Assembly: GCA_037178625.1 (NCBI GenBank)
Contig: CM074143.1
Coordinates: forward strand, 124,001 to 188,000
Length of the DNA stretch: 64,000 nucleotides
Direction: 5' to 3'
Source: Skeletonema tropicum
Taxonomy: Eukaryota; Bacillariophyta; Thalassiosirophyceae; Thalassiosirales; Thalassiosiraceae
Positions 3,575-59,713 of the stretch are shown here, piece by piece. Numbering within the stretch: the first letter of the stretch is position 1; each line of letters begins with the position of its first letter. A program made the translations under genes and the position numbers. Below the pieces are notes generated by a model. The model did not search any database. It was not told where the DNA came from and saw only the letters and a program-made list of their open reading frames with translations.

Positions 3575-3595
3575 ATCATTGGGTCCGACACTCGA

Positions 3596-10637: not shown

Positions 10638-10795
10638 TAAATTTGTCTTGAAGACAAATTTATTTTCAATCGCGGCAACATGACAAATTAACGACAATCA
10701 ATAAAGGATACAACAAAGGGAGAATATTTCTCGTGATGAAGAAACATGTCACCTATAATGACAATGTACCTGTATTTCTTTCTGCAAATTCACCG

Positions 10796-17747: not shown

Positions 17748-18020
17748 TTTAAAGGTGCTTAAAATGCTGCTCTCGGTGAGCTGAGTTCGAATCCGTGCTG
17801 TATCTCATTTTTTATAAAAAAAAATTGTTAAGTAGCCCCACTTCTAGCTGGGCTGGAGGGTTAACCCCAAAAAAACTCGCCTTATCCAGTTTCCTTGGGT
17901 CTTTGGCTCCATATCACACATTCATCGCACCATGATTCGAAACTAACCAAGATACACCCCGGATTTGAACTCAGCTCACTGAGAGGATTTCAGAACTGTG
18001 CTCACCTTTATCATAGCACC
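17748..18020. repeat. Inverted pair of tRNA-like (B-box) sequences
   Basis: On the plus strand, GTGAGCTGAGTTCGAATCCG (about 17776-17795) carries a good RNA polymerase III B-box and is followed by TGTATCT and a T-run. On the minus strand (17951-18020) a related sequence, AGTGAGCTGAGTTCAAATCC then GGGGTGTATCTTGG, faces the other way. Neither folds into a full cloverleaf by eye. They look like tRNA-derived SINE fragments or tRNA pseudogenes. Confidence 0.45.
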
Positions 18021-18247
18021 AATATTCGAAGAGAACTAATCTGCTGGATAGGCTAACACTATAGATCGCCCAACGCCATGATTTCTATCGCCCCATTGGA
18101 ACAACGCCACCCCAGCAAAGAGGCGCCCGCCTCAAGCACCTTCGTAAAGCACCTCCATCAAAGCTCCTTCATCAAAAAGCCAACGGTTTTATCGCCACTT
18201 TCGCACGGTTCCTTCTTTTATCCTATCTCCCTATTGGTTATGTCCGC

Positions 18248-32477: not shown

Positions 32478-32648
32478 CGGCTGGCCAATTTGAGTGTCGT
32501 ATCACTATAACCCTTATTAACACCTCCACTGGGCGTTAACTTCATTCAATCAAATAACTTGAATTTGATCCCCGCTACAACTACCTTCTCTTACGCGTTA
32601 CGACAAAATCTGGATGCAGAAGAACACAAACGAACACGCAGGAAGATT
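32478..32648 (+). promoter_or_regulatory. Orphan upstream module, copy without a gene
   Basis: CAATTTGAGTGTCGTATCAC ... AACTTGAATTTGATCCCCGC ... ACACAAACGAACACGCAGGA matches the region upstream of the paralog gene at 34140 (33817-33978) and, in part, that at 36340 (36107-36240). Here it is followed by a copia remnant instead of a gene. It could be a leftover of a lost paralog, or now serve the divergent gene starting at 32282. Confidence 0.65.
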
Positions 32649-32879
32649 TATTTTCATTTCATTTTTCTTACGGTGGAGATGACCAATCTATAAGTATTAT
32701 AACACACTATATCGATAATTTTCACTTATTAGGGTAATACGTATTTTATCGATTGTGAGCTCATCGATCTTGGCTCTTGTCATGATCAGCCCTTCTTGGC
32801 TGATACGTGGAGGTAGATGATTGCATTAGCTGCGAGAGACGACGTCAGCATACGTGGGCTGCTTCTTACCTTTCGTGCC

Positions 32880-33805
32880 AGCCCACTTATCCTGTTCACT
32901 CTGATTTCCAACACACTCCTATGAGCCTGAATCAATGGATTGCATTGGTTTAGACTCATCAATTCTTTCCTTCATTTTATCATAGTGACTGGCCATGAGT
33001 TCATCAACATCCACTGGACCATGCTCATCGTGGGTAATGTTCATGATTATGTTCCTGAATCGTCGGAACTTTGCTCCGCCGAGAGGTTTTGTGAAGAAGT
33101 CTCCGATCATTTCATCGGTTGGACAATACTTATCGTAAGACTGCTTCCTTTCGCTTCAACACGTCCGCTACAAAGAAGTACCTGACATTCATATGTCTGG
33201 TTCGCTTGCTGCTTGAGCCTCTCCCGTTGGTCTCTAGCATCATGGCACTCATGTTGTCCTGATGAATGACAGATGGCTTGAGTGGATATCCCTGTGCCTC
33301 CATGAAATATCAAGTCCAAAGGATGGCAGGCATATTATTATCATGCACCCCCACGACTTCAGCTTCTGTTGAACTGGTTGTGTTTATCTTTTGATCACTG
33401 GATGACCCGTCGATCATTCCCCTTCCGAAGGTCATGTACCCTCCAGTGTGACTTCTCATGTCATCGTGCACCGCAAATGCTCCATCAATGAACCAGTGAT
33501 TCTGGTCGAGGTATTCTGCTTCGATGGTCAGCCGTAGCCATTTTGTTCTTCTGATGTATTTCATAGCTCTTGCTAGCTTCTTGTAATCATCCTCGTCAGG
33601 TGTCTTCACTCTCTTGGTGAGGAAGGATACGACCAGCCTTAGATCGGACCTAGCCCGCTGGGATCCAAACAGTTGTATGTGGGGCTTGAGGTTATTTAAA
33701 TCTGTGCTGTCTTGGATCGGAACAGTTCATCTCTTTTTTCGTCAAGCTTCGGCGCGTTATCTCTTGTTTTGAAGAGGTGATCAGCTGCTGGAGTCAACAC
33801 CACAC
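32880..33805 (-). pseudogene. Ty1/copia pol remnant (RT end and RNase H)
   Basis: Three minus-strand frames read in order: VLTPAADHLFKTRDNAPKLD (about 33800) and TPDEDDYKKLARAMKYIRRT with SSSDQKINTTSSTEAEVVGV (RNase H, 33310-33609); QAICHSSGQHECHDARDQRE-frame DNA (33107-33319); and MIGDFFTKPLGGAKFRRFRN (32919-33110), the typical copia end block. At least two frameshifts separate them. Gag, protease, integrase and LTRs are not seen, so it is a dead 3' fragment. Confidence 0.8.
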
Positions 33806-33816
33806 TGGCCATCCAG

Positions 33817-34139
33817 GCCAATTTGAGTGTCGTAAGGTATCACTTTAACCCTTATTAACCCTTCTACTGGGCGTTAACTTCAAATAACTTGAATTTGATC
33901 CCCGCTACGACTACCTTCTCTTCCGCGCTGCGGCAGAATCTGGATACAGAAGAACACAAACGAACACGCAGGAAGAACATCAACGACACGGCACGCGCGC
34001 ACGGGGAATAGATACTTATTTTTTCTTATGACCATGCCGGCCATCCATGTCGAAGTACGTTTTAGTACGTCGCATCATAAAAAAATCTGCAACAGGCAAC
34101 AGGCCACAGGCCTGCAATTGACAGTTAGTCGCCCCAAAC
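33817..34139 (+). promoter_or_regulatory. Upstream module of paralog 1
   Basis: Contains the repeated block starting CAATTTGAGTGTCGTAAGGT and AACTTGAATTTGATCCCCGC, shared with 32478-32648 and 36107-36240, followed by TCTTATGACCATGCC and GTACGTCGCATCATAA just before the ATG. Conservation between copies suggests it holds the promoter, but no defined element was recognised. Confidence 0.55.
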
Positions 34140-35819
34140 ATGATGAAGCAAGAATTGCTCACAAATGAAGAAGCGCCTGATCGTCTCTCAGTCGTTCTCC
34201 AAAATCCATCTGCAGAATGGTCCGACATCCGAGCAGCCATGAAAGCTCAGGGAGCTGGCGGCTTCACCAATCTTGCCGTCGTGAATGCTCTCTCCTCAAA
34301 AGGCAGTGATCAAGCAGACAAGTCGTCCGACAATAGTAATGACAAGAGACCGATGCGATCGAAATACATTGAGCCGACTGCTAGCGCCGATGACGACGGC
34401 CAAGCAGCCAAAGAAAAAGATTATGTTGTGTCTTCTGCAAGCGGTGGTGATGATACGCTCATGCCACTAGGCCATAGGAGAGCAACACTGGCATCCCAAG
34501 ACAGCAACAACAGCGGCAGCACTACCCGACCATCTCTCCGAACCCTTCCTCGCCAGAAGTCACGACGACGTATGCGTCGTACGGGGTCGTCGCGACGTAT
34601 GCGTCTACTACGTTCATCAGTGAACACATCCATCAAATCGCTTACTTTGGACTCATTGGCTGAATCCGAATCAGCATCTGGATCACTTCACAATTCGTCT
34701 ACTGATTTTAATAACAGTTCATCGTTCAAGCTTGCAGGAGGAGGCGTCGTCGGCTTTGAAGACTCGGTCAATATTATGGATTTTGGTATCAGTCAACGTC
34801 GTTTGAGGGAAGCTTTAGATGGGAGTGATCGAAGTTGTTCATCGTTGGACACGGGTATGTTGGATGATCTGCAAGAAGAGTACAATGATAATGATGGAGA
34901 TTTATCGGGGAGTAGGCAGACCCTGCTTGTGAGCTGGCAACACGACAGTTCAGTGAGTGGTGGCGACGACGGAGATTTTAGGGGAAGTAGTAGGAGGGCA
35001 TTGATTTTGAGTTGGCGACAGGATAGTACAATGAGTGGTCTCGATGAGTCGTCGGTACGGTCGGAAGGGGATTTGAATAGCTATTATGATGTAGATTCGT
35101 GTGGTTTCTTGGATTGGCCTGCCGCCGCTAGGGAAGGAGACGAAGAGGGTGAAAGTGATGCTATTAAAACAGGGGAAGACACTGTTGATAGGGCAAATAA
35201 TGATGTTGAAGGAGGCACTCGTATTATTGAAGATGAAATCCACCATAAAGTCCAACAACAAGAGGAGGAGGAGGAGGAGTGGAATATTGAGGACTATGAG
35301 GGAGGAGGGGATGATTCGCATCATCCAGGTCGTAAAAAACCACGGTCTCATAGCATCAGTACCAGCACCATGGGATTGGCTGTCACAAATACATTTAAGA
35401 AGTTTACAAGGTCTAATGCCTCTTCTAATGCTTCTCAGGATGATGTGGACCTAATGAAGATCAAAGAGGCACTACCAACTATCATTGCCAAGAACAGACA
35501 GCAACACACTGAAGTGGATGACACTACTGCCGGCAAAAAGAAGCGTGCAGGATCCATCTCTGTAATTAGTAGGTTCCAGCAAAGCATGGAGGCTGAATTG
35601 AAGAAGGACAAAAAAAAGCCTGCTGAACGCATGATGTCTCGAAAGGAAGTAATTTGGGCAAAAGATAGCGTGAACTTTGGCTCGAATGACGAATACAAAA
35701 AGTTGTATGCTCTTGCCCCGAAGAAAAAGGCACCACAGCGGAATAGCTGGAATGTTTTTGAAAGGTTGAAGGGTCATACAATTGAAGACGACTTTTCAGA
35801 GCGAAGAAGCTCAAATTGA
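34140..35819 (+). CDS. Paralog family member 1 (Ser-rich acidic protein)
   Basis: A 559-residue single-exon protein of a family I do not recognise. Blocks shared by all members, in order: NPSAEWSDIRAAMKAQG (residues 22-38); a basic Arg/Ser region with RRxS motifs (about 135-165); NIMDFGISQRRL (about 210); RSEGDLNSY...CGFLDWP (about 306-325); EEWNIEDYE (about 378); a DLMKIKEALPTIIAKN helix (about 433); and a C-terminal block RKEVIWAKD...EYKKLYA (about 500-525). Between blocks the sequence is Ser/Asp/Gly-rich and probably disordered. The many RRxS and acidic-flanked Ser sites suggest phosphorylation. No signal peptide or membrane helix. It pairs with the gene at 36340 at a 2,200-base spacing; upstream and 3' flanks are duplicated too. 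Confidence 0.8.
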   Translation: MMKQELLTNEEAPDRLSVVLQNPSAEWSDIRAAMKAQGAGGFTNLAVVNALSSKGSDQADKSSDNSNDKRPMRSKYIEPTASADDDGQAAKEKDYVVSSASGGDDTLMPLGHRRATLASQDSNNSGSTTRPSLRTLPRQKSRRRMRRTGSSRRMRLLRSSVNTSIKSLTLDSLAESESASGSLHNSSTDFNNSSSFKLAGGGVVGFEDSVNIMDFGISQRRLREALDGSDRSCSSLDTGMLDDLQEEYNDNDGDLSGSRQTLLVSWQHDSSVSGGDDGDFRGSSRRALILSWRQDSTMSGLDESSVRSEGDLNSYYDVDSCGFLDWPAAAREGDEEGESDAIKTGEDTVDRANNDVEGGTRIIEDEIHHKVQQQEEEEEEWNIEDYEGGGDDSHHPGRKKPRSHSISTSTMGLAVTNTFKKFTRSNASSNASQDDVDLMKIKEALPTIIAKNRQQHTEVDDTTAGKKKRAGSISVISRFQQSMEAELKKDKKKPAERMMSRKEVIWAKDSVNFGSNDEYKKLYALAPKKKAPQRNSWNVFERLKGHTIEDDFSERRSSN

Positions 35820-36106
35820 AGATTGTGCAAATATTTTATGTAGGCTTTTAGGTTGATAATTGATATAAGATGAAAGTTAACTGAATCCTACATACTTCAA
35901 TGGTAATGGTATACCATTCAGAATTTCATTATGGAGGCCTATTTTTGATGATGACGCGAACATATACAGAAACTTGATCTACGCTTAGACTGCGAAAACG
36001 AAAAAAGTTTAGGTTATCAAGCGATTGAGGCATACAACCGACCGACCGACGCGACCGAGGAACCACGTAAGTACTTACGATACTTACCACAATTTTTTTA
36101 TGTATT

Positions 36107-36339
36107 TGTTAGATAACTTGAATTTGATCCCCGCTACGACTACCTTCTCTTACGCGCTGCGACAGAATCTGTAGAAGGAAATATGTATCTGGATACAGAA
36201 GGACACAAACGAACATCGAACATGTACTTGTGCAGGAATAAACATCAACACACGGGGATTTTATGTTCTCTTATGACCATGCCATGTCGAAGTACTTGGT
36301 CCGTCGCATCATAATCTGCAACAGGCCATCGCCCCAAAC
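36107..36339 (+). promoter_or_regulatory. Upstream module of paralog 2
   Basis: Repeats AACTTGAATTTGATCCCCGC, CTACCTTCTCTTACGCGCTG and TGGATACAGAAGGACACAAA from the modules at 32478 and 33817, with an extra insertion (TAGAAGGAAATATGTATC). The first 50 bases of the longer module are missing here. Confidence 0.55.
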
Positions 36340-37965
36340 ATGATGAAGCAATCCAAAACTGAATTGCTCACGAATGAAGAAGCGCCTGATCGTCTCTCAG
36401 TCGTTCTCCAAAATCCATCTGCAGAATGGTCCGACATCCGAGCAGCCATGAAAGCTCAGGGAGCTGGCGGCTGCACCAATCTTGCCGTCGTGAATGCTAC
36501 ATTCTCCTCAAAAGGCAGTGATTCAAAAGACAAATCCGACAATAGTAAAGATAAGAGATCGAAATACATTGAGCCGACTGCTAGTGCCGATGACGACGGC
36601 CAAGCAGCCAAAGAAAAAGATGTTGTGTCCGCCAGCGGTGGTGGTGGTGATGATGATACGCTCATGCCACTAGGCCATAGGAGAGCATCCCACGACAGCA
36701 ACAGCGGCAGCACCCGGCCATCTCTCCGAACCATTCCTCGCCAGACGTCACGACGACGTATGCGTCGTGCGGGGTCGCGACGTATGCGTCTACTACGTTC
36801 ATCATCGGTGAACACATCCATCAAATCGCTTACTTTGGACTCATTGGCTGAATCAGAAGGTACATCTGGCTCAATTAACAATTCGTCCACTGATTTTAAT
36901 AACAGTTCATCGTTCAAGCTTGCAGGAGACTCGGTCAATATTATGGATTTTGGTATCAGTCAACGTCGTTTGAGGGAAGCTTTAGATGGGAGTGATCGAA
37001 GTTGTTCATCGTTGGACACGGGTGTGTTGGATGATCTGCTAGAAGAATACGATGATGATGGAGATTTGTCGGGGAGTAGGCAGACCCTGATTGTGAGCTG
37101 GCAACGCGACAGGTCAACAGTGAGTGGTGGCGACGACGGAGATTTTAGGGGAAGTAGGAGGGCATTGATTTTGAGTTGGCGACAGGATAGTACAATGAGT
37201 GGTTTCGATGAAATGTCGGTACGGTCGGAAGGGGATTTGAATAGCTATGATGTAGATTCGTGTGGTTTCTTGGATTGGCCTGCCGCCGCTAGGGAAGGAG
37301 ACGAAGAGGGTGAAAGTGATGCTATTAAAACAGGGGAAGACACTGTTGTTAGGGCAAAAAATAATGATGTTGAAGGAGGCACTCGTATTGAAGATGAAAT
37401 CCAACATAAAGTCCAAAAACAAGAGGAGGAGTGGAATATTGAGGACTATGAGGGAGGTGGGGATGATTCGCATCATCCAGGTCGTAAAAAACCACGGTCT
37501 CATAGCATCAGTACCAGCACCATGGGATTGGCTGTCACAAATACATTCAAGAAGTTTACAAGGTCTAATGCCTCTTCTAATGCTTCTCAGGATGATATGG
37601 ACCTAATGAAGATCAAAGAGGCACTACCAACTATCATTGCCAAGAACAGACAGCAACACACCGAAGTGGATGGCACTACCGGCAAAAAGAAGCGTGCAGG
37701 ATCCATCTCTGTAATTAGTATGCTCCAGCAAAGCATGGAAACTGAATTGAAGAAGGACAAAAAGCCTGCTGAACGCATGTCTCGAAAGGAAGTAATTTGG
37801 GTAAAAGAAGATAGCGTGAAGTTTGGCTCTAATGACGAATACAAAAAGTTGTATACTCCTGCCCCGAAGAAAAGGGGACCACAGCGGAATAGCTGGAATG
37901 TTTTTGAAAGGTTGAAAGGTTATTCAATCGAAGACAACTTTTCAGAGCGAAGAAGCTCAAATTGA
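36340..37965 (+). CDS. Paralog family member 2
   Basis: A 541-residue single-exon protein, very similar to member 1 along its whole length. Differences are mostly in-frame indels in low-complexity stretches: an extra SKT near the N-terminus, loss of GGGVVGFE before DSVNIMDFG, and a shorter Glu run before EWNIEDYE. All shared blocks are present: NPSAEWSDIRAAMKAQG, NIMDFGISQRRL, RSEGDLNSY, EEWNIEDYE, RKEVIWVKED...EYKKLY. The 3' flank (GGTTGATAATTGATTTAAGA) also matches that of member 1, so the duplication unit includes both flanks. That indels preserve frame suggests both copies have been under selection to remain open. Confidence 0.8.
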   Translation: MMKQSKTELLTNEEAPDRLSVVLQNPSAEWSDIRAAMKAQGAGGCTNLAVVNATFSSKGSDSKDKSDNSKDKRSKYIEPTASADDDGQAAKEKDVVSASGGGGDDDTLMPLGHRRASHDSNSGSTRPSLRTIPRQTSRRRMRRAGSRRMRLLRSSSVNTSIKSLTLDSLAESEGTSGSINNSSTDFNNSSSFKLAGDSVNIMDFGISQRRLREALDGSDRSCSSLDTGVLDDLLEEYDDDGDLSGSRQTLIVSWQRDRSTVSGGDDGDFRGSRRALILSWRQDSTMSGFDEMSVRSEGDLNSYDVDSCGFLDWPAAAREGDEEGESDAIKTGEDTVVRAKNNDVEGGTRIEDEIQHKVQKQEEEWNIEDYEGGGDDSHHPGRKKPRSHSISTSTMGLAVTNTFKKFTRSNASSNASQDDMDLMKIKEALPTIIAKNRQQHTEVDGTTGKKKRAGSISVISMLQQSMETELKKDKKPAERMSRKEVIWVKEDSVKFGSNDEYKKLYTPAPKKRGPQRNSWNVFERLKGYSIEDNFSERRSSN

Positions 37966-38198
37966 AGATTGTGCATGTTATTGTTTGTAGGTTTTTAGGT
38001 TGATAATTGATTTAAGATGAAAGTTAACTGAATCCTTCATAATAGAGATAATCTCTATTGTCTATCGTCCATCCATCGTCAGCTCAAATCAATCGTCATC
38101 GGCAATGCTAAGTAGGACCCTACCATTAAGCACGTCCAATCAAAAAATAATCACACACCATCACAACCTATTCCCACCACAAATCAACCTATCTATCT

Positions 38199-39056
38199 CT
38201 ACAACTTTCCATCTCTATGCTTTTGTAATAGTTCCACAAACTCCCGTTTCTCCATCAAACCCAACGCCAATCTCCCCAAACCCGCCTTGGAAATTGCCCC
38301 CTTGAGTTCCTTCACACTCATTTCCGATGGATCCTTCAATTTGACTTTGAATTCACCTTCTCCCCCCGGTGGCAAGATTTGTTGCAAAAATGACAATACA
38401 TCCCCAATTTCTTGTGGATTTACTGAATGAGCTAAACCTGGATATGTCTTCAATGTGTAATTAGTAGCCCCCTTGGCCTTGACAGCTGATTGACTTTCAT
38501 TGGCGGCGGTAATTCTCACAAGTGGATCTGCTGCCCCGTGTCCATGCCAAATAGGCGTATCGTGCAATCCGTTTGCAATATTAAATCCACTTTCATGTGG
38601 CAAGTACCCACTCATGATGACAATCCCGGCAAGTTTCGATGACAGTTGCATCCCCGTGTAGAGACTGAGTGCCCCTCCCTGCGAAAATCCCGCCAGAACC
38701 ATGCGATTGTATGGCACACCCAAATGTTCGTGCTCATCTTTCAACAACTTCTCGATGCGCTGCTGTGATTCCTCAATTCCGTTGCAGAATTCATTGGATC
38801 GCTTATCCAGTCCGACAATATCGTACCAGCTTGGCATGGCCATGCCCATGTTCATTGTGACTTTTTGCGTCTTGGCGGTTGGGAGGATAAATTTAACATG
38901 TGGCATTTGTGATGCGAGATGTTCGGCCACGTCGACAAAGCCCTCGCTTGAGTCACCTAAGCCATGGCAGATGACTATGGTGGCACTTTGGAGGGACTCG
39001 TTGCTGGGGGAGACGATTATGGTACCGTCTCCCTGCCGTGTTGTTGTGGATGGCAT
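38199..39056 (-). CDS. Acyl-protein thioesterase / lysophospholipase-like hydrolase
   Basis: A 285-residue alpha/beta hydrolase of the APT1/LYPLA family, which removes palmitate from protein cysteines or acyl chains from lysophospholipids in the cytosol. Visible signatures: VICHGLGDSSEGF (oxyanion loop, residues about 28-40), LPTAKTQKVTMNMGMAMPSW (substrate loop), GFSQGGALSLYTG with nucleophile Ser (about 122), PIWHGHGAADPLV with the Asp (about 176) and YPGLAHSVNPQE with the His (about 211). A C-terminal extension beyond the usual end (EMSVKELKGAISKAGLGRLA) looks like a small helical SAP-like add-on. It lies on the opposite strand in the middle of the paralog array and is unrelated to it. Very likely functional. 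Confidence 0.9.
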   Translation of the reverse strand: MPSTTTRQGDGTIIVSPSNESLQSATIVICHGLGDSSEGFVDVAEHLASQMPHVKFILPTAKTQKVTMNMGMAMPSWYDIVGLDKRSNEFCNGIEESQQRIEKLLKDEHEHLGVPYNRMVLAGFSQGGALSLYTGMQLSSKLAGIVIMSGYLPHESGFNIANGLHDTPIWHGHGAADPLVRITAANESQSAVKAKGATNYTLKTYPGLAHSVNPQEIGDVLSFLQQILPPGGEGEFKVKLKDPSEMSVKELKGAISKAGLGRLALGLMEKREFVELLQKHRDGKL

Positions 39057-39607
39057 TGTTGGTATGTATTATTATTTTTGAAAGTGAAGGAGGGTTGTGA
39101 GTTGTGAGGGGTTTGATTTATTTGCTACGCACGAGAGTTGTGGCTGGCTTTTGTTACAGTTTACAGTATTCAACGGCTCCCTCGAAGAAAAATGTTACCA
39201 TACTTGGTCCCGTAACAAAGGCTTTACGACAGGCCAAAGGCTGATGAACAGGCCTTTTTAATCCGTACCATTCTACGCTGCGACATTCTCTCTTTGAAAG
39301 TAACCAAGCTTACGTTACTTAAATTGGTTCCTCTGTAGACTGAGACATGGTAAAGCTGTTCAGGGAAAGCACACAAAACCAGCAGCAGGAGATGCTCCGA
39401 GATGTCCAACTTCAATGTGCAGTAAATGTCTTTGCGTAAAGCTAAGCAATGTTTGTGAAGTGTTCGTTGCAGGCTACTCACTCACACAACAATCTACATC
39501 TTCGGCTGGCAGGAGCTTCTCTGCTACCCTGCATTGCATCATAAGAATTCATCAGCAGACAATCACGCCACTACTTATCAAGTACTTCTACAAATCATTC
39601 ACCGACG
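39057..39607. other. Spacer upstream of paralog 3
   Basis: Contains TTCCTCTGTAGACTGAG (about 39329), repeated upstream of the paralog 4 pseudogene (about 41349), and CAGACAATCACGCC...AGTACTTCTAC close to the start codon, also repeated (about 41682). These are shared upstream sequences of the second doublet. No gene seen. Confidence 0.5.
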
Positions 39608-41251
39608 ATGACAAACGACCAGGAAGATCCTCGCATACTCGTGCGTTCGCTCTCAACCGTCTTGAACGGTAAGTAACCAACTGGTGCAACGTAAAAGAAA
39701 ATTGTGCGTGTAATCGTAGTTTTGTGGAGTTCATATCTTATGAAATGATCATATCAACTTCTTCGTACTGCCACAACAGACCCAAACGCAGAATGGAAAG
39801 ATATCCGATCTGCCATGAAGGCAAAAACGCATGGACTCAAGTGCAGCACTAATCTTGCCATCGTCAATGCTTCCTGCTCTGGAGGCGTTGGGCCTGATGA
39901 TAATGATAACACTGCTGAGCTTATCAAACAAGGAGAAGGAAGCTACAGCAGCAATCGACGTCCATCTCGCAGAGCTAACCGCCGTGTATCTAGAAAACGT
40001 TCCTCACTCCGATGGTCGGCCAGAAGTTCCTCTGCCAGTCTTCAATCATCCTTCAACATCGATGATTCCGCCACTTCAAGAGGCTCTGTGAACATGATGG
40101 ATTTTGGTGTTAGCCAACGCTGTTTGGCAGTTCTAGACGAGAGTCTAAGAGGTTGTGCGCTAGATGATGATACTCGAAGCTGTGCTTCCTTGGATGAGCT
40201 GGACCAGTTGAAAGAAGAGTTTGAGTTTGATAACTCGGATGAAGAGGGAAGAGGAAGAGAGCTTGTAGGTAACCTCGACGGATCAATTCGATCGGAGGGA
40301 GATTTGGATGATTATGTGGATTCTTATGATGGATTCATGAATCAGCCTTCAACCCCACAGGAGAAAGAAGTTGGCGGATCTACTCTGAACGATCCTCCTG
40401 GAGAAGATGAAGAAGGGAATAAAATCAGCAGCAGCCGACGACCATCTCGACGTAGTGTCCGCCGCCAATCAAGACGACACGGATCACACCGATTGTCAGG
40501 TAGAAGTTCCGCTGGCAGTCTTGGTTCATCCTTCAGCTTCACTGATTCACTCATCTCTGAATCTGGTTTCATGGGTTGGCCATCTGCTGCTCAACAAGAA
40601 ATTGCTGGTGATTTGAATGAGGATGGAGGTGATGCCAATGATACTATTCAAGAGGAGCATGCTGATGAAATGAAGAGAGAAGAAGAAGAGTGGCACATCG
40701 AGGATTACGAGAAAAGCACAGATGATTCAGGTCATATCCAGCACTGTCTGAGTGAGGGCAGTAGTGGCTCTAGTGCATTTGCCAAAACGTTCCAACTCTT
40801 TGCTCGAGTGCCTATTAGTAATAGGCGTGCCTCGAATGCCTCGTCTGATCCTTGCCTGGATGGCACGATGGACTTGCTCAAGATCAAGCGGATGCTGCTC
40901 AGCGCCAAAAATAAGGAGCAGGGCGTGGAAGAAGAGGAAGACAATTACGATGAAGACGAAAAGAAGTGTGGTGGCTCCATGACCCTGTTTAGCATGTTCC
41001 AGCAAAGCTTGGCAGCGGAAATGGATGAAGTTACCGTCGAAAAAAATAGCGAACCTTTGCCAATAGCCAGCATGTATGATGGCGATAATGGACCGACCAG
41101 ACGCAGGACTCGAGAAGATGCAATCTGGATGCGACATAATAGCATTATCCACGACGACCCTGATGTATACAAAAAGCTGTATGCCCAACCTCCCAGTGAG
41201 GCAATGCCTCGGCAGAGTTTGAATATTTTTGGAAGGCCAAATAAGAAGTGA
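39608..41251 (+). CDS. Paralog family member 3 (two exons)
   Basis: Model: join(39608..39668, 39780..41251), 510 residues. The donor AACG/GTAAGT and acceptor CCACAACAG restore the family N-terminal block as VLNDPNAEWKDIRSAMKAK, split by the intron inside the Asp codon. Other blocks: NMMDFGVSQR, RSEGDLDDY, EEWHIEDYE, a TMDLLKIKRMLLSAKN helix, FSMFQQSLAAEM and REDAIWMRHN...VYKKLYA. This member carries the basic module twice (RRPSRRANRRVSRKRSSLRW and RRPSRRSVRRQSRRHGSHRL), each followed by a Ser-rich SL.SSF segment, which indicates an internal duplication. Members 1, 2, 5 and 6 have no intron here; the pseudogene at 41719 keeps traces of one. Confidence 0.75.
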
Positions 41252-41718
41252 GTTATGGCAGGGAAGGGATTGTACTGATGTTGTGGCGTGGGTGGTGGCT
41301 CGGATGAATTATCTATGCTTTCGCGAACGTGGGAGTATCAAATATTAGTTCCTCTGTAGACTGAGTCATAGTTTAGAATTACACATTTACTTGACGTGTC
41401 TGTTCTCACACCTATGTACACGCGCACAACCACAAAATCAGTACCTATCGCCAACAACATGTGGCAGATCTACTTCACAAAGATACATTAGCTCTCAGTC
41501 GACTCAATCTTCTCAGCCATTCACAGATGCTTTTCTTTTTCAAAATACCATTGATACGTTGTTTACCGTAGCACAGAAATAACCTAAAGCCCCACATACA
41601 TATCATCTAAGTAAAGTATATTGACGGAAAGCTAGCATTCATTTGCTGCCTCCCGCTTCCGCTTCCGCATACTTAATTCGTCAGACAATCACACCTATCG
41701 AGTACTTCTACCAACGAC

Positions 41719-43021
41719 GATGACGAACGACCAGGAAGATCCCCACCGCCTGAACGGTAACGGTAAGTAATGGTGCAAAGTAGGAAATTGTGCTTTTAAT
41801 CGTTCTAAATGATTTTATGTCGACTTCTATTGCCACCACAGGTTGCTCTGAATGCGTTGAGCCTGATAGAGCAAACTCAGTTATCCAATAACCGCGGCTG
41901 CTGAGATAATCAAAGTAGAAGAAGGGAGCAGAGCCAGAGCAGCAATCGACGTCCATCTCGCACCTCGCAGAGCTAGCCGCCGTGCATCTAGAAAACTTTT
42001 CTCACTCAGACTCAGACTCAGATGGTCGGCTAGAAGTTCCGCTACCAGTCTTCAATCATCCTTCAATTTCAATGATTCTAAGGTTTGATTGGACGGCTAT
42101 ACGTTTTTCAAGGTATTGTAGAAGAGATAAAGATGAGGAAAAGAATAAGACTACATCGCAAACGTCCCACGAGAGCAGCAGCAGCCGACGACGACGACCA
42201 TCTCGAAGACGAAGTTTCCACCGCAAATCAAGACGGCACTCCTCACGACACGGATCACAACGATTGTTAGGTAGAAGTGCCGCCGGCAGTCTTGGTCTTG
42301 GTTCATCCTTCAACATGAGTGATTCCCTCGTCTCTCTGAATCTGGTTTCATGGGATGGCCATCTGCCGCTCAAGAAGAAATTGCTGGTGAGGATGGAGCT
42401 GATGCCGATGATACTATTACTATTCAAGAGGAACATGCTAATGATATGAAGAGAGAAGAAAAAGAATGGCATATCGAGGATTGCGAGAAAAATACAGATG
42501 ATTCAGGCCACATAATCAGTGTCGTCTGAATGGCACGATGGACTTGCTCAAGATCAAGCAGATTCTGCTCAGCTCCAAAAATAAGGATAAGGAGCAGGGC
42601 GTGGAAGAAGTTGAAGTTTGAAGAGAATGACGACGAAAAGATGCGTGGTGGCTCCATGACCCTGATTAGCATGTTCCAGCAAAGTTTGGCTGTTGACGAC
42701 TATCCATGGTCTAGTTGGTTAACCCTTTCAACATTGGCATTGGCAGCAGAAATGGATGAAGTAAACGTCGAAAAAATAGCGAACCTTTGCCAATAGCCAG
42801 CATGTATGTGATGGCGATAATGAACCGACCAGACGCAGGACTCGAGAAGATGCAATCTGGATGCGACATAATACTACAATCTATGACGACCCTGATGTAT
42901 ACAAAAAGCTTATGCCCAACCTCCCAGTGAGGCAATGCCTTAGCAGCAGAGTTTGAATTGTTTTTGGAAGGCCAAAAAGTAAAGATAAAGATAAAGATAA
43001 AGAATTCAAGATGCCCACTTG
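41719..43021 (+). pseudogene. Paralog family member 4, decayed
   Basis: Closely related to member 3. Exon 1 (MTNDQEDP...) begins at 41719 but is shortened, and the start of exon 2 with the AEW block is missing. Afterwards the sequence follows member 3 through several frameshifts: RRRPSRRR...SRRHSSRHGSQ, GSSFNMSDSLV, a MARWTCSRSSR-frame copy of the DLLKIK region, MFQQSLAV, and GLSKMQSGCDI-frame DNA of the AIWMRHN block. A stretch of about 110 bases is deleted near 42525. A 54-base insert with a tRNA-like A-box sits at 42691-42744. The end carries AAAGAT tandem repeats (about 42976-43001). No continuous frame survives. Confidence 0.85.
42691..42744 (+). mobile_element. 54-base insertion carrying a tRNA-like A-box
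   Basis: Compared with member 3 (TTGGCAGCGGAAATGG), this copy has 54 extra bases flanked by TTGGC direct repeats (42686-42690 and 42740-42744). The insert contains TATCCATGGTCTAGTTGGTT, the 5' half of a tRNA with a good A-box (TGGTCTAGTTGG). I read it as insertion of a tRNA fragment with a 5-base target duplication. Confidence 0.6.
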
Positions 43022-45452
43022 ATTTCTTCAAGATAATGGAGATGGAGTGGCTTGTACTAGCCAACTTTGATGTTGATGTCAGTCGCAAATTATCGTGTGT
43101 ATAATGAATGAAGTATGTAGAAGTAGAGCGAAACACTATGGTATTGGTATGCAGGATAAATATAAATATTATTGAATATTATTTTACTCTCCTTTCCCCA
43201 CCACTGGTCATGCTATATGGTAACGAGCAAGCTTTAACGATGAAGCAAACAGCATCATAGTCATAGAGCGTGACCTATTGCTATTGAACTGTGCTCAAGT
43301 CCATCAAATATATAATTATCATGGCCTAAGCCTAAGGATATCCCTGCATGCATCACATGTGAAGTTCGAGTGGAAATGCGTCGTTGAGAGAAGTCGAGTA
43401 GAAGTAAAGGGCTTCTCCAAGGAAGGGGTGGTGACATCATGACACCATTTAAGTTTAAGATTCAAGGTCATTGAAACCATTCTTTTATGTGCCCTGATGA
43501 AATCCACCACCACAGTACTCACTTTCCCACTTTTAGACTTTATGTGGTAGTAGGTACTTGACTAAGTTACTTCCAGCTAGATCGTTCAGAGCGAGTTATT
43601 GCAGAGAATCAATCGATGAACAATGACAATGACAATGACAAAATGACAATGAACGATCTGGTGGATCTTGTGCTTCTGTTTCTGTCTGCATACACTGTGA
43701 ACAAGTCGCGGTGTGGACTCTAGCTCAATGCGGGAGCCGAGGTGAAAGTGGAGGTGAGGCTAGACCTGCTGGACCTGACCTGCTGGACCTGACCTTGCGG
43801 GTCATGTCTGCTCTGCCAAGCACAGAAACAGAAATGACCAGAATCAAATCCGATTCAGTGTAATGGAGATGTAATGAAGGTTCATTATGTTATCGTAGAA
43901 TTATTATGAGGATCATGCTGCGCTTGCGTCGAGAGAACATGATTGGTGAAATAGCATTCGGACCAGCTGTTCCAGTTCCAACTGTCGACGTCAACTCCAA
44001 TCCTTGTGTCAGCAACCATGTAGTTGAGACATACGTTTTCTTTCAGGAATCCAGAGAATACCTAGGCAATGACCGTACTAGTCGTAGTCGTACTGGGCAA
44101 TGCCAATGCACTCTTCCCCACCATGATCATTGGCGCTGGTCTTGATCAATGTCAATGAGAATGTAAGAGTAAACAGTAAGAATACTAATTCTAGTTTACT
44201 AATGTAACTGTATACTTCCTCAGAAGAGGTTTGGCCAAAGCCACAAAGTACAGAGAGCCAGCTCTTTTACTGTGTGCGTGTATGTAGATGAAGGGAAAAA
44301 GAAAGAAAACTTCGCAAGAAGGGAAAACTCGAAAACCCTCGGTAATGTGTCACCGAATGACTCGCACTCGCGTTCTTCTTCTTCGCGTGGGAGTGGAGGA
44401 TGTGGAATTGGAATATGATCGATGAGGCTCTCGCCTTTCGATTGCATGTATTTGTATTCGTATTCGTTCAACTACTCCTGTGGCTGTGGTCTGAGTCTGA
44501 GTCTGATCTGAATCTGAATTTGAATCTGACTAGGATAGAATTTGATAGAAAACCTTCAACTTCAATGTGATGTAAGACGGACCAATCGCGTCCTGTGACT
44601 GTGACAAGATAAAGACTATCATCGAGGAAAGGGGAAAAAGGAAAACCCTTGTGTGGTGCTGGATCGAACTTACTTTATGTTTATGATGTATCCGTAGTCC
44701 AAATGTAGTGGTACCTAGTGTATCTGATACCTGTACCTGTACCTGGCTCACGTGTATCTTGTGTCTGAACTCTGAACGAGACTTGCTTCGCAACATAACT
44801 CTATATAATATTAATATTTATATAAGTTGTTTGAGTTGCTTGTATGGCCAGGTCTAATAGATATGTATGTTTCTTATGTAATTATGTACAGCTGGCTTCG
44901 CAGCGTATCGGGAATCGGGAGAATTGTCTGGCGTCTGGCGTCTGGCGTCTGGCTACCGTACCGGACTAATGGAAGAATAGTGTTTCCTAATTTTTTATGT
45001 ACCAACAAAGTTCTTGTAGATTTAAATTTGGATTTGGAAACCTCGTCGCCTCTTCTTGTCGTGCAATATCTCCCTACAATACTCCCTACTTGCCCCAACG
45101 AGAACGAGAATCAGACCACCGCGCCCTACATATCTCCCAGAGCCTCCCAGTCATTTTGATTTCTGGCACAGGTCACAGATAGCACACACAAATCAACCGG
45201 CTACGACACCAACACCATTCAAGATTCCAGGTCATTTGAAATCCACCATAGGTGGTGCTAAAGTACTCACTTTCCCCTTTTGGACTTTATGTGTTGATAG
45301 GTACTTATATTTGAAGCATACACATACACCTTCCGCGCCCTCCCAGTCATTTTGACTCTGTTTCCATTCGCCGTTCGCCGCCAGCCCAAGCCCAAGCGAT
45401 GGGGCAGAGCATTACTCACATAACTTTCAACAATAACAAAAAGTCATGCAAC
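43022..45452. other. Long spacer with orphan upstream module and short tandem repeats
   Basis: 43340-43570 repeats the upstream module of members 5 and 6 (ATTCAAGGTCATT...GAAATCCACCA...AGTACTCACTTTCCC) but no gene follows. Many short direct repeats occur: ACAATG units (43621-43655), CTGCTGGACCTGAC units (43767-43795), CTGAATCTGAATTTGAATCT (about 44509), ACCTGTACCTGTACC (about 44730), GTCTGGCGTCTGGCGTCTGG (about 44928). The small ORFs are unsupported. The last 230 bases (45225-45452) are the upstream module of member 5. Confidence 0.55.
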
Positions 45453-46781
45453 ATGTCAGACCCAGACCAATCTAAGCAACCACCTCGCCGCCTCACAGCT
45501 GTTCTCAACGATCCCTCAGCTGAATGGTCTGAAATTATATCCGCTTTGGAGGCAAGGGCAAGAGCGCAGGGAGGTGGTGCGGTAAAAAATCATGCCCTCG
45601 CCAAATACCTTTCCTCTACCAAGACACGGGATGATCATGCGGCAGAGCAGTCGATGAACAATAAGGCCACTGACAGTGACAGCAGCGATGATGAAGAGCA
45701 AGCAGCTAAAACAGGCAGCAGCGATGATAAACTGATGCCTCTGGGAAATATGAATAGGAGGGCATCTCTGGCATCCCAATCCAGTATTGAACGCCATTCT
45801 CGTCGATCTCTCTTCCGCCGCGAAGCATTAAGAAGACAATCATTAAGAAGAAACACTTCTCTTGAATCGGTTGGAAAGAACAGCAGTGCCTCAAGCCGCT
45901 CTACTCCTAGGCCAGAATCCAGTAGATCAACCTTTTCTGGCAAATCCATTACTATTACACCAGCGCTCAACTGCTCCACTAGCAGTATCAATAGTGTCAA
46001 TATTATGGATTTTGGTGTCAGTAATCGTGCTCTAGCGGCATCGCTGGATTCTAGTAGGCGAAGTTTTTCTTCGTTAGATGATGATGTTTTGGATGAGCTG
46101 GAAGAAGAGTTGTGTGGCGACGGTAATGCAGAGGAGTGGGGGGGCAGCAGGAGCAGGAGGGGGTTACTAGTGAGTTGGCGTAGTAAAAATGATTCCAGTC
46201 TTAGATCGATACATAATGGTGGCAGCAATGAGCAACCAACGAGATCGGAAGGTGATTTGGATGACTACCAAGATACGTGTGGTTACATGGATTGGCCATC
46301 TGTAGCTGATGGTGCAAATTCAAACGATACTATTCAAGAGGAAAACGAACCAATCAAAACAGAAGAAGAGTGGAACATTGAGGATTATGAGCAAAACATT
46401 GATGATGCGGTTCGATCTGGCAAAAGGTTATCGGTTCAAAGGCATTTTCTGAGCCAAAGCCAAAGCCTCACGAAATCATTGCGTTTTTTTGATCGATTGG
46501 TGTCTAGCTTGGACATGGAATCGTCCTTCACGTCTCAGTCGTCTCAGGAGGGAATTACCGACTTGAAAAGAAAGAAGCCTAACCGCTTTAGCTTCACCTC
46601 CGCACTCAGGAGATTATCAATATCAAGTGATGCTAATGAGAGAACTAAGTCGGAAGAGGCAATCTGGGTGCGAGAAGAGAGTGATGATCCAGGCGTAGGC
46701 GAGCAATACAGAAACATTTACGCTGCTGCTGCTGCTGCTGCTGCAAACTCGCCCCAAGCGCGGAGGTTTTCTCATTTTTGA
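45453..46781 (+). CDS. Paralog family member 5
   Basis: A 442-residue protein. I place the start at 45453 (MSDPDQSKQPPRRLTAVLND) rather than the in-frame ATG at 45399, because the otherwise conserved upstream sequence of member 6 has no ATG at the matching place. Blocks: NDPSAEWSEIISALEARARA (about 20-39), the basic Arg/Ser region RRASLASQSSIERHSRRSLF, NIMDFGVSNRALAASL, RSEGDLDDYQDTCGYMDWPS, EEWNIEDYEQN and the C-terminal EEAIWVREESDDPG...YRNIYA followed by an Ala run from a GCT repeat. It lacks the DL.K...L helix partly retained in member 6. Forms the third doublet with 47983, spaced 2,530 bases. Confidence 0.8.
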   Translation: MSDPDQSKQPPRRLTAVLNDPSAEWSEIISALEARARAQGGGAVKNHALAKYLSSTKTRDDHAAEQSMNNKATDSDSSDDEEQAAKTGSSDDKLMPLGNMNRRASLASQSSIERHSRRSLFRREALRRQSLRRNTSLESVGKNSSASSRSTPRPESSRSTFSGKSITITPALNCSTSSINSVNIMDFGVSNRALAASLDSSRRSFSSLDDDVLDELEEELCGDGNAEEWGGSRSRRGLLVSWRSKNDSSLRSIHNGGSNEQPTRSEGDLDDYQDTCGYMDWPSVADGANSNDTIQEENEPIKTEEEWNIEDYEQNIDDAVRSGKRLSVQRHFLSQSQSLTKSLRFFDRLVSSLDMESSFTSQSSQEGITDLKRKKPNRFSFTSALRRLSISSDANERTKSEEAIWVREESDDPGVGEQYRNIYAAAAAAAANSPQARRFSHF

Positions 46782-47982
46782 TTGGTAAACAATATTCACC
46801 AGATGATAGAGACACGTTTCTCCTCTCATCTTGCAAATAAATGCATTTACCCGTAATTTGTGAATGGATGTGAGTAATAATGATAGTTCTTCGGTCTTCG
46901 GAGACAGGTATAGGTATCACTATCACGATCACAAGATAATGAATTTAAATTCAAGGAAATTCGAAAAGATGTATAGTATAGGTCGTTTTGAGCAGACATT
47001 TACATTTTTATGTGAGTAAAAATGACTTATCATACTTAGCCTGCGGCAGCCTGCCCTTGGTTCCAGGTTTTTATCTTGTTGCATCCCTCAGCATTCCCCT
47101 CACATTCACATTTCACATCAAGATCAAGATCTGTGGCTGCGGCTGTGGTGGGGTGGTGGGCTTTATAATGTCCTTCGCATTTTAGCACAAATATATTCGG
47201 CCAAGTAAGCATCCCATGTGAAGAACGAATATTTTCGAAATGTGTCGTTAGTTGGCAGAAGTCGAGAGTTACAGTACCGACATCATGCTGACACCATTCG
47301 AGATTCAAGGTCATTTTGAAATCCACCATATGTGGTGATACGGTACTCACTTTCCCCTTTTGGACTTCATGTGGTGCTATATAGGTATTTACTATTTACA
47401 TATATAGAGTAAGTACTTACATACTTGAAGTTACTTCTTGATCAGTACCGGCCCTCCCACCTCCCAGTCATTTTGACTCTGTTTCCATTGCAATGGTCAA
47501 TGTTTTTTATCTGAATCTGAATCTGAAACGTTCGCCTTCCTGATTTACTTATGCCTCTTTCCAATCCGCGATCATCCGGCATCAACATTGTTCAAGATGT
47601 GACATTTGCAACACATCAAGGAGGAACGTCAACGTTTCAGATTCAGAATAAGTGGCGTTTTTGGCTCTGATTCTGAAACGTTTAATTTCGGAGAAACTCA
47701 AATAACCCTAACCAAAGCGGCACCAAAACAACGATTAAAAAATAAGTGGCACTCATCCACACTCAAAGCCAAATCCAACTCCCCGTACGTAGACATACTA
47801 ATTCCTAAGGCCAACGTTTCAGATTCAGATTCAGAAAAAAACATACTTGAAGTTACTTCTTGATTGAAAGGAGACACATACTGCGTACAATAGAGAGTGC
47901 CGGCCCTCCCAGTCATTTTGACTCTTTCCTTGCAGCCGGGGCGGAGCATTACTCACATAACTTTCAACAATAACAAAAAGTC
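46782..47982. other. Spacer with duplicated upstream module and foldback element
   Basis: 47200-47400 is the upstream module shared with 43340 and 45225. ACTTGAAGTTACTTCTTGAT with following GGCCCTCCCA...CAGTCATTTTGACTCT occurs twice (about 47421-47482 and 47845-47926), flanking an inverted-repeat element at 47511-47834. Confidence 0.6.
47511..47834. mobile_element. Foldback-like element upstream of paralog 6
   Basis: The left end CTGAATCTGAATCTGAAACG is the reverse complement of the right end CGTTTCAGATTCAGATTCAG. Two further internal copies occur, CAACGTTTCAGATTCAGAA (about 47629) and GATTCTGAAACGTTTAA (about 47669), in opposite orientations. AATAAGTGGC also occurs twice inside. There is no coding capacity. 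It could be a small foldback transposon, or a cluster of inverted regulatory motifs. Confidence 0.6.
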
Positions 47983-49323
47983 ATGCAAGATTCAGACCAA
48001 CCAAAGCAACCACCTCGCCGCCTCACAGCTGTTCTCAACGATCCCTCAGCTGAATGGCCTGAAATTATATCCGCTGTGGAGGCAAGGGCAAGAGCGCAGG
48101 GAGGTGGTGCGGTCACAAATCATGCCCTTTCCTCTACCAGGAAATTGGATGATCATGCGGCAGAGCAGTCGATGAACAATAAGGCGACTGACAGTGACAG
48201 CAGCGATGATGAAGAGCAAGCAGCTAAAACAGGCAGCAGCGATGATAAACTGATGCCTCTGGGGAATATAAATAGGAGGGCATCTCTGGCATCCCAATCC
48301 AGTATTGAACGCCATTCTCGTCGATCTCTCTTCCGCCGTGAAGCATTAAGAAGACAATCATTAAGAAGAAACGCAACTCTTGAATCGGTTGGAAAGAGCG
48401 GCAGTGCCTCAAGCCGCTCTACTCCTAGGCCAGAATCCAGTAGATCATCTTTTTCTGGCAAATCTATTACCATTTCACCAGCATTCAACTGCTCCACTAG
48501 CAGTATCAATAGTGTCAATATTATGGATTTTGGTGTCAGTCATCGTGCTCTAGCGGCATCGCTGGATCCTAATAGGCAAAGTTTTTCTTCGTTAGATGAT
48601 GATGTTTTGGATGAGCTGGAAGGAGAGTTGTACGGCGACGGTAATGAAGAGGGAATGGGGGGCAGCAGGAGGGGATTACTAGTGAGTTGGCGTAGTAAAA
48701 ATGATTCCAGTCTTAGATCGATACATAATGGTGGCAGCAATGAGCAACCAACGAGATCGGAAGGTGATTTGGATGACTACCAAGATACGTGTGGTTTCAT
48801 GGATTGGCCATCTGCGGCTGATGGTTCAAACGATACTATTCAAGAGGAAAACGAACCAATCAAAACAGAAGAAGAGTGGAACATTGAGGATTATGAGCAA
48901 AACATTGATGATACGGTTCGATCGGGTCAAAGGCGATCTGGTCAAAGGCGATCGGGTCGAAATTTTCTGAGCCAAAGCCTCACGAAATCATTGCGTGTCT
49001 TTGAGCGGTCGCCTAGCTTGGAATCGTCCTTTGCTTCTCAGGAGGGAATTACGGACTTGATTAAACAAAAACTACTCAGCACCAAGAATAATCACCAGCA
49101 GCAAGAGAATAACGACAGAAAGAAGCATAACCACTTTAGCTTCACCTCCGCACTCAGGAGATCATCAAGTGATGCTGATGAGAGAACTAAGTCTGGAGAG
49201 GCAATCTGGGTGCGAGAAGAGAGTGATGATCCAGGCGTAGGTGAGCAATACAGAAACATTTATGCTGCTGCTGCCGCTGAGTCACCGAAAACGCAAAAGA
49301 AGAGCTTATTTTCTTACTTTTAA
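47983..49323 (+). CDS. Paralog family member 6
   Basis: A 446-residue protein, nearly identical to member 5 over most of its length (MQDSDQPKQPPRRLTAVLND, AEWPEIISAVEARARA, RRASLASQSSIERHSRRSLF, NIMDFGVSHRALAASL, RSEGDLDDYQDTCGFMDWPS, EEWNIEDYEQN, EAIWVREESDDPGVGEQYRN). It differs by in-frame indels, three tandem RSGQR-type repeats (about residues 313-327) and a retained helix TDLIKQKLLSTKN that member 5 has lost. The start at 47983 (GTCATGC) is the only suitable ATG. The high similarity to member 5 implies a recent duplication; the region between them holds the foldback-like element, so upstream control may now differ. Confidence 0.8.
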   Translation: MQDSDQPKQPPRRLTAVLNDPSAEWPEIISAVEARARAQGGGAVTNHALSSTRKLDDHAAEQSMNNKATDSDSSDDEEQAAKTGSSDDKLMPLGNINRRASLASQSSIERHSRRSLFRREALRRQSLRRNATLESVGKSGSASSRSTPRPESSRSSFSGKSITISPAFNCSTSSINSVNIMDFGVSHRALAASLDPNRQSFSSLDDDVLDELEGELYGDGNEEGMGGSRRGLLVSWRSKNDSSLRSIHNGGSNEQPTRSEGDLDDYQDTCGFMDWPSAADGSNDTIQEENEPIKTEEEWNIEDYEQNIDDTVRSGQRRSGQRRSGRNFLSQSLTKSLRVFERSPSLESSFASQEGITDLIKQKLLSTKNNHQQQENNDRKKHNHFSFTSALRRSSSDADERTKSGEAIWVREESDDPGVGEQYRNIYAAAAAESPKTQKKSLFSYF

Positions 49324-51281: not shown

Positions 51282-51694
51282 ATGATGATGATGCAATAAT
51301 AGCAGCAAATTGCAGATGATGCTAACAGGTGATGCAACAGCGCAGCCTGGAGAAAATGCTCTGAACAGAAATAATGTATGAACCCTGAGAATAGGGCAAA
51401 TAAGTACGTAGGAATTCCATACATGCCTGTCCCCCGTTTTTTTTTGGTTCCGACGATCTCCACTTTTTGCTCTCCACCGCCGCAGCCACAAAGATCCGCC
51501 CTCCCGTAGTATCATATTACCACCCATACCATAGGGCACACACAACGCATAATAACTTGATAACATACTGTCCCCTACAGAATTTTCCGTAGAATTCAAC
51601 GGCGGCCGCCGATTTGTTACGTTTGCAGCGGTTTTATTTACGTATCGTCATAAAGCTGACGGTGCTTTTTCTTATCATCATCGCATCTTTCATC

Positions 51695-53317
51695 ATGGTT
51701 TCGACCAAACAATTGTCTCCCAAGACTCCGAAGGTAGGAAAGAAGCGCCGATCAACAAAAGTTACTCCCTCTCCTGTGGCAGTGAAAAAGAAAAAGAATG
51801 CATGTGACTGCAATTGGAAAGATTGCGCTAAACTTCTGGCAATTTTTAACAAAAACAAACACCCTGACTTTGCTGGCAGATGCATCAATATTGAAGTGTC
51901 CGACACAGTCAATGCATTGAATTTTATTAATTGTGCATGTAAAAACCTTGGTATTTCCGTATCCGACTACAAAGAACTAAAACAGAAAGCAACAGATGAC
52001 TCTAATATGAAACGGACACGTGCAACACACACGGAGGGAGGGAGGAGGAAGAAGAACAACATATTCATTGCACGGCATCACTTCAAGCCTGGGCTATGGA
52101 GAATGAAAAAAGCGAGTAAGAAAAAGTGGCAATGGCTTCAGCCCATATCATCAGACGACGTTAAAAAATACAAAGTGTTGGCTGATAACTACACAACCGA
52201 CAAAGTTGTACGGTTCGATCCGGACATATCCAACAAACTACAAAATGGGAGAGAGAAGAAAGTCGACTGTGAATCAGAGGAGGGGAGACTGTATATCAAA
52301 GCGCCATGCGCTACAAAGGAGGATGTGCGGCAGATTGCAGAACCTCGTCAAGGACTTGACAGCAACACTCTTGATGAAAAGAGGGAAGCTGCACTTACAG
52401 CAGAGGAAATGAAAGCAACGATTGCTTCAAAGGATGCAATGATTGAAACGCTGCGAAAGCAACTAGAACAATCCAATGCAGAGAAGAAAAAGAAAGATGA
52501 CGAACTAAAGCGAATAAAATTACAAAAGGATGTTGCAAAGTCACAAAAGAAAGCTGTGCAGAAAAGTATCAAAAGAACGACGGCCAAGCATGCTGAGGAT
52601 GTTGCAAACATTGCGGTGGAACTGCAGGAATCCACTATTTTGCAAGAAGCAAAGGAGATCGTCTTGAACGCTGGTGGTCTGTCAAGGTTAACACTATTTA
52701 GTGACCGATTTCACAACAAAAACAAACATGCAGCAAAGGTTCTGTTTGGGTATGAAAGTTGGGACGAAACAAAGCAATACTTGCGTGTTCACTTCCCGAA
52801 GGAGATTGAAGCCGACTTCAACATGGATAACATCATATTCACAACTAACAGGAAGAGGAAGAAGTCAAAGGAAAAGTCAAACCAGTTCAAGATGCCAAAT
52901 CTTCATCAGTTTGAGAAGGCTCTTATCTGCCGAATGTTCCTTCACCGTATCAGTGACCAACAAATGATTGCATTGATGTTGGCTCGCCACCGAACGACTA
53001 TTAGCAATATACTGTACGAGTGGGGACCAAAGTGGGGTGAAGTAGGAGATGATTTATGCAATCTTGACATTACTGAGGAATATCTTGAAGTCGAGCTTCC
53101 CAATAAATTAGTTGAGAATGGATACCCAAAAGTTGTTATGATTGATGGAAAGGATGTTACTATTGGCACAAAAGTTAATGATGGCACCGCAAGTAGAGTC
53201 ACTTTCAGCTCCAAGACGGACTGTGATGCAGCCCGATGTTTGACTTGGTCCACAGCTGCGGGACTTGTATTTGAACATACGCCATTGTTTGGGGCCCGTG
53301 CATCAGAAACCTCTTAG
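51695..53317 (+). pseudogene. DDE transposase, N-terminal part only
   Basis: The frame opens at 51614, but MVSTKQLSPKTPKVG at 51695 is the likelier start, giving 540 residues. A Lys-rich head is followed by a Cys-containing part (ACDCNWKDCAKLLAIF), a coiled coil (TIASKDAMIETLRKQLEQSN) and a helix-turn-helix-like part (FEKALICRMFLHRISDQQMI...RTTISNILYEW). It then enters a DDE core of the PIF/Harbinger or IS4-like type: VVMIDGKDV (first catalytic Asp), FSSKTDCDAARCLTWSTAAG and TPLFGARASE. The protein stops right after RASE, before the second Asp and the Glu, at a point overlapping the end of the nuclease gene. I infer an internal deletion that removed the transposase C-terminus, so it should be inactive. 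Confidence 0.7.
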
Positions 53318-55256: not shown

Positions 55257-55523
55257 CGGCGTGGAATAAATTAATTATCACGCACCGTCAGCTTTATGAC
55301 GATACGTAAATAAAACCGCTGCAAACGTAAGAAATCGGCGGCCACCGTTGAATTCTACGGAAAATTCTGTAGGGGACAGTATGTTATCAAGTTATTATGC
55401 GTTGTGTGTGCCCTATGGTATGGTTGGTAGTATGATACTACGGGAGGGCGGATCTTTTGTGGCTACGGTGGTGGAGAGCAAAAAGTTGAGATCGTCGGAA
55501 CCAAAAAAAAACGGGGGACAGGC

Positions 55524-59538: not shown

Positions 59539-59680
59539 TCAGATCTCCATCATTGCAGCACCTCCTGACTTTTTCTCACTATCACGTGAAAGCCGAATTA
59601 ACATCTCTGCGACATCGTTAGCCTCATCATTGTTGTCCACGGACATTACCGACATTCTATCACTTGACATTCTTGCTGAT

Positions 59681-59713
<33 letters not shown>

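Follow-up and report, generated by a model that had tools for sequence, protein, structure and literature searches.

An ordered-motif protein family under purifying selection in the diatom Skeletonema

A large part of each diatom gene set is without known function, and one stretch of Skeletonema tropicum chromosome 17 carries a run of similar plus-strand genes of this kind. Do these genes form a protein family kept by selection, and if so, what might its proteins do? The stretch analyzed here, called the window, comprises bases 124001 to 188000 of the chromosome (64,000 nucleotides), and positions refer to the window unless another chromosome is named. A preliminary description made from the sequence had proposed six tandem genes for Ser-rich acidic proteins, arranged as three doublets, as a candidate for an undescribed system.

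All six proposed copies are present, at positions correct to within 1 base, and the five described as open (M1, M2, M3, M5, and M6) are intact. M1 (34140 to 35819) and M2 (36340 to 37965) are sister genes of subfamily A. M1 is a single exon with two adjacent Met codons as likely starts, at 34140 (559 amino acids) and at 34143 (558 amino acids, the version used for analyses). M2 encodes 541 amino acids. Read from stop to stop, the two open frames span 34122 to 35819 (565 amino acids) and 36277 to 37965 (562 amino acids).

M3 (39608 to 41251) belongs to subfamily B and consists of a short first exon (39608 to 39668), a 111-nucleotide GT-AG intron (39669 to 39779), and a second exon (39780 to 41251), giving 510 amino acids when spliced. 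The stop-to-stop frame runs from 39749 to 41251 (500 amino acids). The splice falls inside a conserved block, between LND and PNAEW, and the intron is supported by the protein of MMETSP transcript cluster P0017, which is uninterrupted across the same splice point. The other B copy, M4, is a pseudogene that begins with an ATG at 41720 (given earlier as 41719) and ends at approximately 42990. Exon 1 survives with its donor site, but the DPNAEW block has been lost and the reading frame is disrupted. M5 (45453 to 46781; 442 amino acids) and M6 (47983 to 49323; 446 amino acids) are intact sisters of subfamily C, within stop-to-stop frames of 45315 to 46781 (488 amino acids) and 47974 to 49323 (449 amino acids). 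M5 is a single exon; one further ATG lies upstream in frame at 45399, and we set the start at 45453 because relatives start there. A phospholipase/carboxylesterase gene (Abhydrolase_2, E 1e-53; 38199 to 39068, minus strand) interrupts the tandem array between the A and B pairs.

A family of six turned out to be too low a count once the 78.39-Mb S. tropicum genome was searched. Three more intact B relatives were found. One lies on chromosome 17 near 1.446 Mb, and the other two, on chromosome 23, are oppositely oriented and differ by one residue. Defective B copies are also present: chromosome 1 has a truncated one near 0.878 Mb, chromosome 22 a broken one, and chromosome 23 two N-terminal fragments. 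Two divergent members with intact frames and the same block order lie on chromosome 10 (320 amino acids) and on chromosome 1 near 2.586 Mb (610 amino acids, both from the first Met). A family HMM built from 23 members scored them at 52.5 and 60.2 bits, respectively, whereas the highest score among 2,000 shuffles was 10.6 bits. A match on chromosome 19 (E 0.002) lay in a poly-Gln frame, by eye an MRE11-like gene, and was dismissed as low complexity.

The chromosome 23 copies sit in near-identical inverted places at about 36 to 43 kb and 645 to 652 kb (L005, L007, and L033), each holding an intact B gene together with an N-terminal B fragment about 6 kb from it. The fragment near 43 kb is a short frame of its own, and the one near 645 kb is known as a search match only. 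These places may be a genuine duplication, or redundancy in the assembly may account for them.

A tree of 28 proteins recovered the three subfamilies, with support of 99/99 for A, 99/99 for B, and 90/88 for C, and each also contains sequences from other sources. M1 and M2 are close sisters, as are M5 and M6, and M3 groups closely with family members B5 and B7. Seven forks of this tree are open, and the divergent members D and E are on long branches with unsure placement. Because A, B, and C hold outside sequences while the window pairs are close sisters, the subfamilies are older than the species, and the window holds an old A-B-C tandem set whose members have each undergone a recent duplication, with one of the B copies now dead. 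The proposed doublets thus stand as pairs, here refined to three recently doubled old subfamilies within a larger, dispersed family.

Relatives were also found outside this genome. A protein database search, queried with family members other than the two divergent ones on chromosomes 1 and 10, returned at least 20 proteins at E≤1 (7,996 candidates scored by a method that needs shared 5-residue words). Species names were attached to 4 of the 20, all Skeletonema. The relatives include P0004 (S. dohrnii), P0005 (S. marinoi), MMETSP clusters P0010 and P0017, and metagenome proteins; two MMETSP transcript clusters have 13 and 5 member sequences, and relatives of both A and B types are present as transcripts. 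These proteins share the block order and are true homologues, with 37 to 76% identity to M5 within alignment A2. A profile search of proteins added one new protein (P0021), and a search with the N-terminal region, which scored 33 candidates, gave 5 proteins, every one a family member and the query itself among them. Pattern stretches in viral contigs (13) and prokaryote contigs (85) yielded no confirmed relative.

Searches for a known family behind these proteins were negative, in line with the preliminary description. The five intact window copies matched no Pfam family at E≤1. Among the 23 members of alignment A2, 11 Pfam families appeared at E≤5, each in one member only, with a best E of 0.007 in a table without cut-offs; the two divergent members gave one weak match (E 0.052; 14.4 bits versus a cut-off of 27.6). 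No significant PDB match was found by sequence or fold, the N-terminal piece included, and neither the five block motifs as text nor diatom orphan or disordered genes led to anything in the literature searched. The database check found no known annotated family, and neither annotation nor function is attached to the relatives. This is a new family, not found described in Pfam, PDB, or the literature searched, although the kind is familiar, namely families of mostly disordered proteins that multiply by duplication and, here as far as found, are lineage-restricted. "Undescribed system" was too strong, since the evidence is for a family, and neither a partner gene nor a larger system came to light.

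The proteins share about 45 conserved residues at the N terminus, followed by short blocks in fixed order (MDFG, SLDD..LDELxEE, RSEGDLD, GFLDW, WNIEDYE, and IWxR..YKKLYA) within Ser/Arg/Asp-rich spacers. The shared block order claimed earlier was recovered in an alignment of seven members from this genome, and we then counted motifs over 28 family proteins, using patterns written after the sequences were seen. [MLY]DFG and [WL].I[EA]D[YH] each occur in all 28, the N-terminal core in 27, G[FY][LMV][DGNA]W in 26, and IW.[RK] in 24; P0004 and P0005, the two exceptions to the FLDW-type pattern, read DFLDW. The F[LMV][DG]W motif occurs four times in the chromosome 1 divergent member (L054, 899 to 2728), in part inside repeated RRPSSRSSF-type units, hinting that FLDW could be a reusable docking motif.

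The description as acidic and Ser-rich also fits, with a pI of 4.9 to 5.8 and 14 to 17% Ser in the five intact window copies. Their highest 19-residue hydropathy mean is 0.62 to 0.74, indicating no hydrophobic segment, so we take the proteins to be soluble. An AlphaFold2 model of M5 built with 23 sequences had a mean pLDDT of 49.8, with 284 of 442 residues below 50 and the spacers at low confidence, suggesting that most of the protein is probably disordered. Residues 11 to 40 contain the sole ten-residue blocks with a mean pLDDT of at least 84 (84 to 91), and the modeled helices span residues 14 to 19, 25 to 38, and 47 to 54. This predicted helical piece corresponds to about residues 10 to 54 (45480 to 45614, plus strand). 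Modeled alone, the first 64 residues had a mean pLDDT of 66.4, with helices at 14 to 19, 25 to 38, and 47 to 57.

Comparison of duplicates shows that the proteins are under purifying selection. Gaps in nucleotide alignments were multiples of three in 22 of 22 cases for M1/M2, 8 of 8 for M5/M6, 4 of 4 for M3/B5, and 18 of 18 for M3/B8, or 52 of 52 over four coding pairs, two of which share M3. The same was true of only 11 of 22 gaps between M3 and the dead M4 (whole genes, intron included) and of 7 of 30 in six flanking comparisons of the window pairs. Identity was 85 to 96% in coding sequence versus 40 to 73% in those six flanks. The preliminary description had read the in-frame indels as selection on the protein, and dN/dS within pairs agrees, as it is not near 1. 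By NG86, with bootstrap intervals, it was 0.53 (0.33 to 0.74) for M1/M2, 0.48 (0.36 to 0.72) for M5/M6, 0.40 (0.24 to 0.66) for M3/B5, 0.41 (0.30 to 0.56) for M3/B8, and 0.43 (0.32 to 0.59) for B5/B8. None of these five intervals reaches 1; B5/B7 has too few changes for a bootstrap. Two other estimators gave 0.47 to 0.59 for M1/M2, M5/M6, M3/B5, and M3/B8.

Within the proteins, blocks had a lower dN than linkers in four of four pairs, a contrast that is partly circular because block borders were picked from family conservation. The ratio dN/dS was not reduced in blocks in two of the four, namely M1/M2 (1.11 versus 0.46, from few changes) and M5/M6 (0.49 versus 0.47).

The spacers also carry candidate phosphorylation sites. 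An RRx[S/T] site at the NRRASL block, a putative target of PKA/AGC-type kinases, occurs in 20 of 23 alignment rows, M2 missing it only via an alignment gap, and B5 and B7 read RRTP there. Counts of RRx[S/T] lie above those of almost every shuffle in M3, M5, and M6 but are not enriched in M1 and M2, where 160 and 179 of 500 shuffles, respectively, reach the observed count. The earlier proposal that RRxS sites imply kinase regulation is thus plausible, with predicted sites enriched in three of the intact window copies and not in the other two. We take RRxS to be a basophilic site type and SLDD and SEGD to be perhaps acidophilic ones.

Together, the low predicted structure, the helical N-terminal piece, the invariant acidic-aromatic blocks, and the kinase-type spacer sites fit a phosphorylation-switched soluble hub or co-regulator. 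Our main reading, to which we assign a probability of roughly 0.4, is that these proteins act as soluble, kinase-regulated docking hubs or co-regulators through the N-terminal piece and the acidic-aromatic motifs (DFG, FLDW, and WNIEDYE). The helical piece would bind one constant partner or dimerize, and the acidic-aromatic motifs would dock other partners. Basophilic RRxS and perhaps acidophilic SLDD and SEGD kinase sites in the spacers could switch these contacts, and duplication might then tune dosage or partner choice. Each step beyond a selected, mostly disordered, motif-bearing protein is one that we infer. Against the hub reading we count the modest pLDDT of the N-terminal piece modeled alone, the lack of RRx[S/T] enrichment in M1 and M2, the RRTP in B5 and B7, the two pairs without lower dN/dS in blocks, and KKxR-type nuclear signals absent from 12 of 28 proteins.

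Several other explanations address the same features. The family could be fast-evolving genomic baggage, near neutral, with frames intact because the duplicates are young or homogenized by gene conversion. Low dS (0.07 to 0.15 in M1/M2, M5/M6, and M3/B5) is in keeping with this, as are the dead copy M4 and the damaged or incomplete B copies of chromosomes 22, 1, and 23. However, the dN/dS intervals and the uniformly in-frame indels, together with blocks conserved across subfamilies that predate the species and transcription of relatives, make it very unlikely in our view. In taxon-restricted (orphan) disordered families that grew by tandem duplication, narrow distribution (here as far as found), low structure, tandem and dispersed copies, and pseudogenes are likewise present; this family differs in its strict block order across five divergent groups of this genome (subfamilies A, B, and C plus the divergent members of chromosomes 1 and 10). 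Silaffins, silacidins, and cingulins are low-complexity Ser/acid-rich diatom proteins, and a silica or cell-wall matrix protein of that type would suit a diatom host and acidic window copies of such Ser content. The window copies differ from them in having no signal-peptide-like N terminus, judged by the hydropathy maximum, a crude test for a signal peptide, and in their conserved W/I/Y docking-type blocks, which would not be expected of silaffins. With the signal peptide wanting, a matrix role is extremely improbable.

A transcriptional co-regulator would have activation-domain-like acidic-aromatic blocks, Arg/Lys-rich spacers for nuclear entry, and an N-terminal piece that binds a transcription factor. 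Of the 28 proteins, 23 contain strict tiles of acidic plus W/F/Y/L residues that resemble acidic activation domains, compared with 2.5 to 27.5% of shuffles, depending on the protein, although this count is weak since the 28 sequences are related and five fail under the thresholds that we chose. A K[KR]x[KR] cluster is present in 16 proteins, in 13 of them as the same KK[KR]R-type site, but it is missing in the other 12 and shuffles yield 0.1 to 0.9 clusters per protein. Pfam shows no DNA-binding or known co-regulator domain either, and we find this role rather unlikely. The Arg/Ser-rich spacers, such as RRPSRRASRR, resemble those of SR/RS-domain splicing factors, but no RRM was found in the five window copies (E≤1), the 23 A2 members (E≤5), or the two divergent members (E≤1). 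Short acidic-aromatic motifs are the usual form of adaptor docking sites, and a clade-specific cytoskeletal, trafficking, or membrane adaptor, in which FLDW and WNIEDYE bind a TPR or appendage-type domain, could account for them and for the four F[LMV][DG]W motifs of the chromosome 1 member. No adaptor was matched significantly by sequence or fold, and we regard this identity as doubtful.

Returning to the docking-hub reading, if the motifs dock real partners, the family would show how a mostly unstructured, lineage-restricted family becomes fixed in the regulation of an ecologically important alga. A bolder version, which we hold to be improbable, has a family of phospho-switched hubs born within Skeletonema; it would define a helical mini-domain, new and about 45 residues long, together with a reusable acidic-aromatic docking code, and its subfamilies would have rewired motif number and so changed partners between closely related bloom-forming diatoms. 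The family lends itself to testing: its motif order is conserved, the dead copy serves as an internal control, the subfamilies are older than the species, and the N-terminal piece is small and can be expressed.

The window holds several further features. The upstream region of the A genes is itself repeated, with copies upstream of M1 and M2 and a third, gene-less copy at 32499 to 32646 (plus strand). A retroelement origin was considered for this repeat and rejected, since the matches found in the genome (at least three) all lie at this place, so that it does not resemble a genome-wide repeat. Between the A-type upstream copies, in the region from 32499 to 33976, a minus-strand frame (33310 to 33726) resembles a Copia RNase H remnant, judged by eye. 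Exact repeats about 8.97 kb apart (462/9427, 1492/10455, and 1650/10638) at 462 to 10789 enclose a reverse transcriptase frame (3575 to 5248, plus strand) and an integrase-type frame on the opposite strand (5734 to 7002, minus strand), an arrangement suggestive of a young LTR element whose interior is rearranged or nested. At 51425 to 55523, inverted repeat arms of about 240 nucleotides (96 to 98% complementary) flank an XPG-type nuclease frame (53205 to 55274, minus strand) and a 574-amino-acid frame without a Pfam match (51593 to 53317, plus strand). A minus-strand frame at 59539 to 60942 carries DUF6824, a domain of unknown function. Long plus-strand frames at 18001 to 22514 include one with a borderline reverse transcriptase match, with a strong GC skew of about -0.3 across 18001 to 22000, and an array of a 121-bp unit (2.2 copies, 97% matches) lies at 16490 to 16753.
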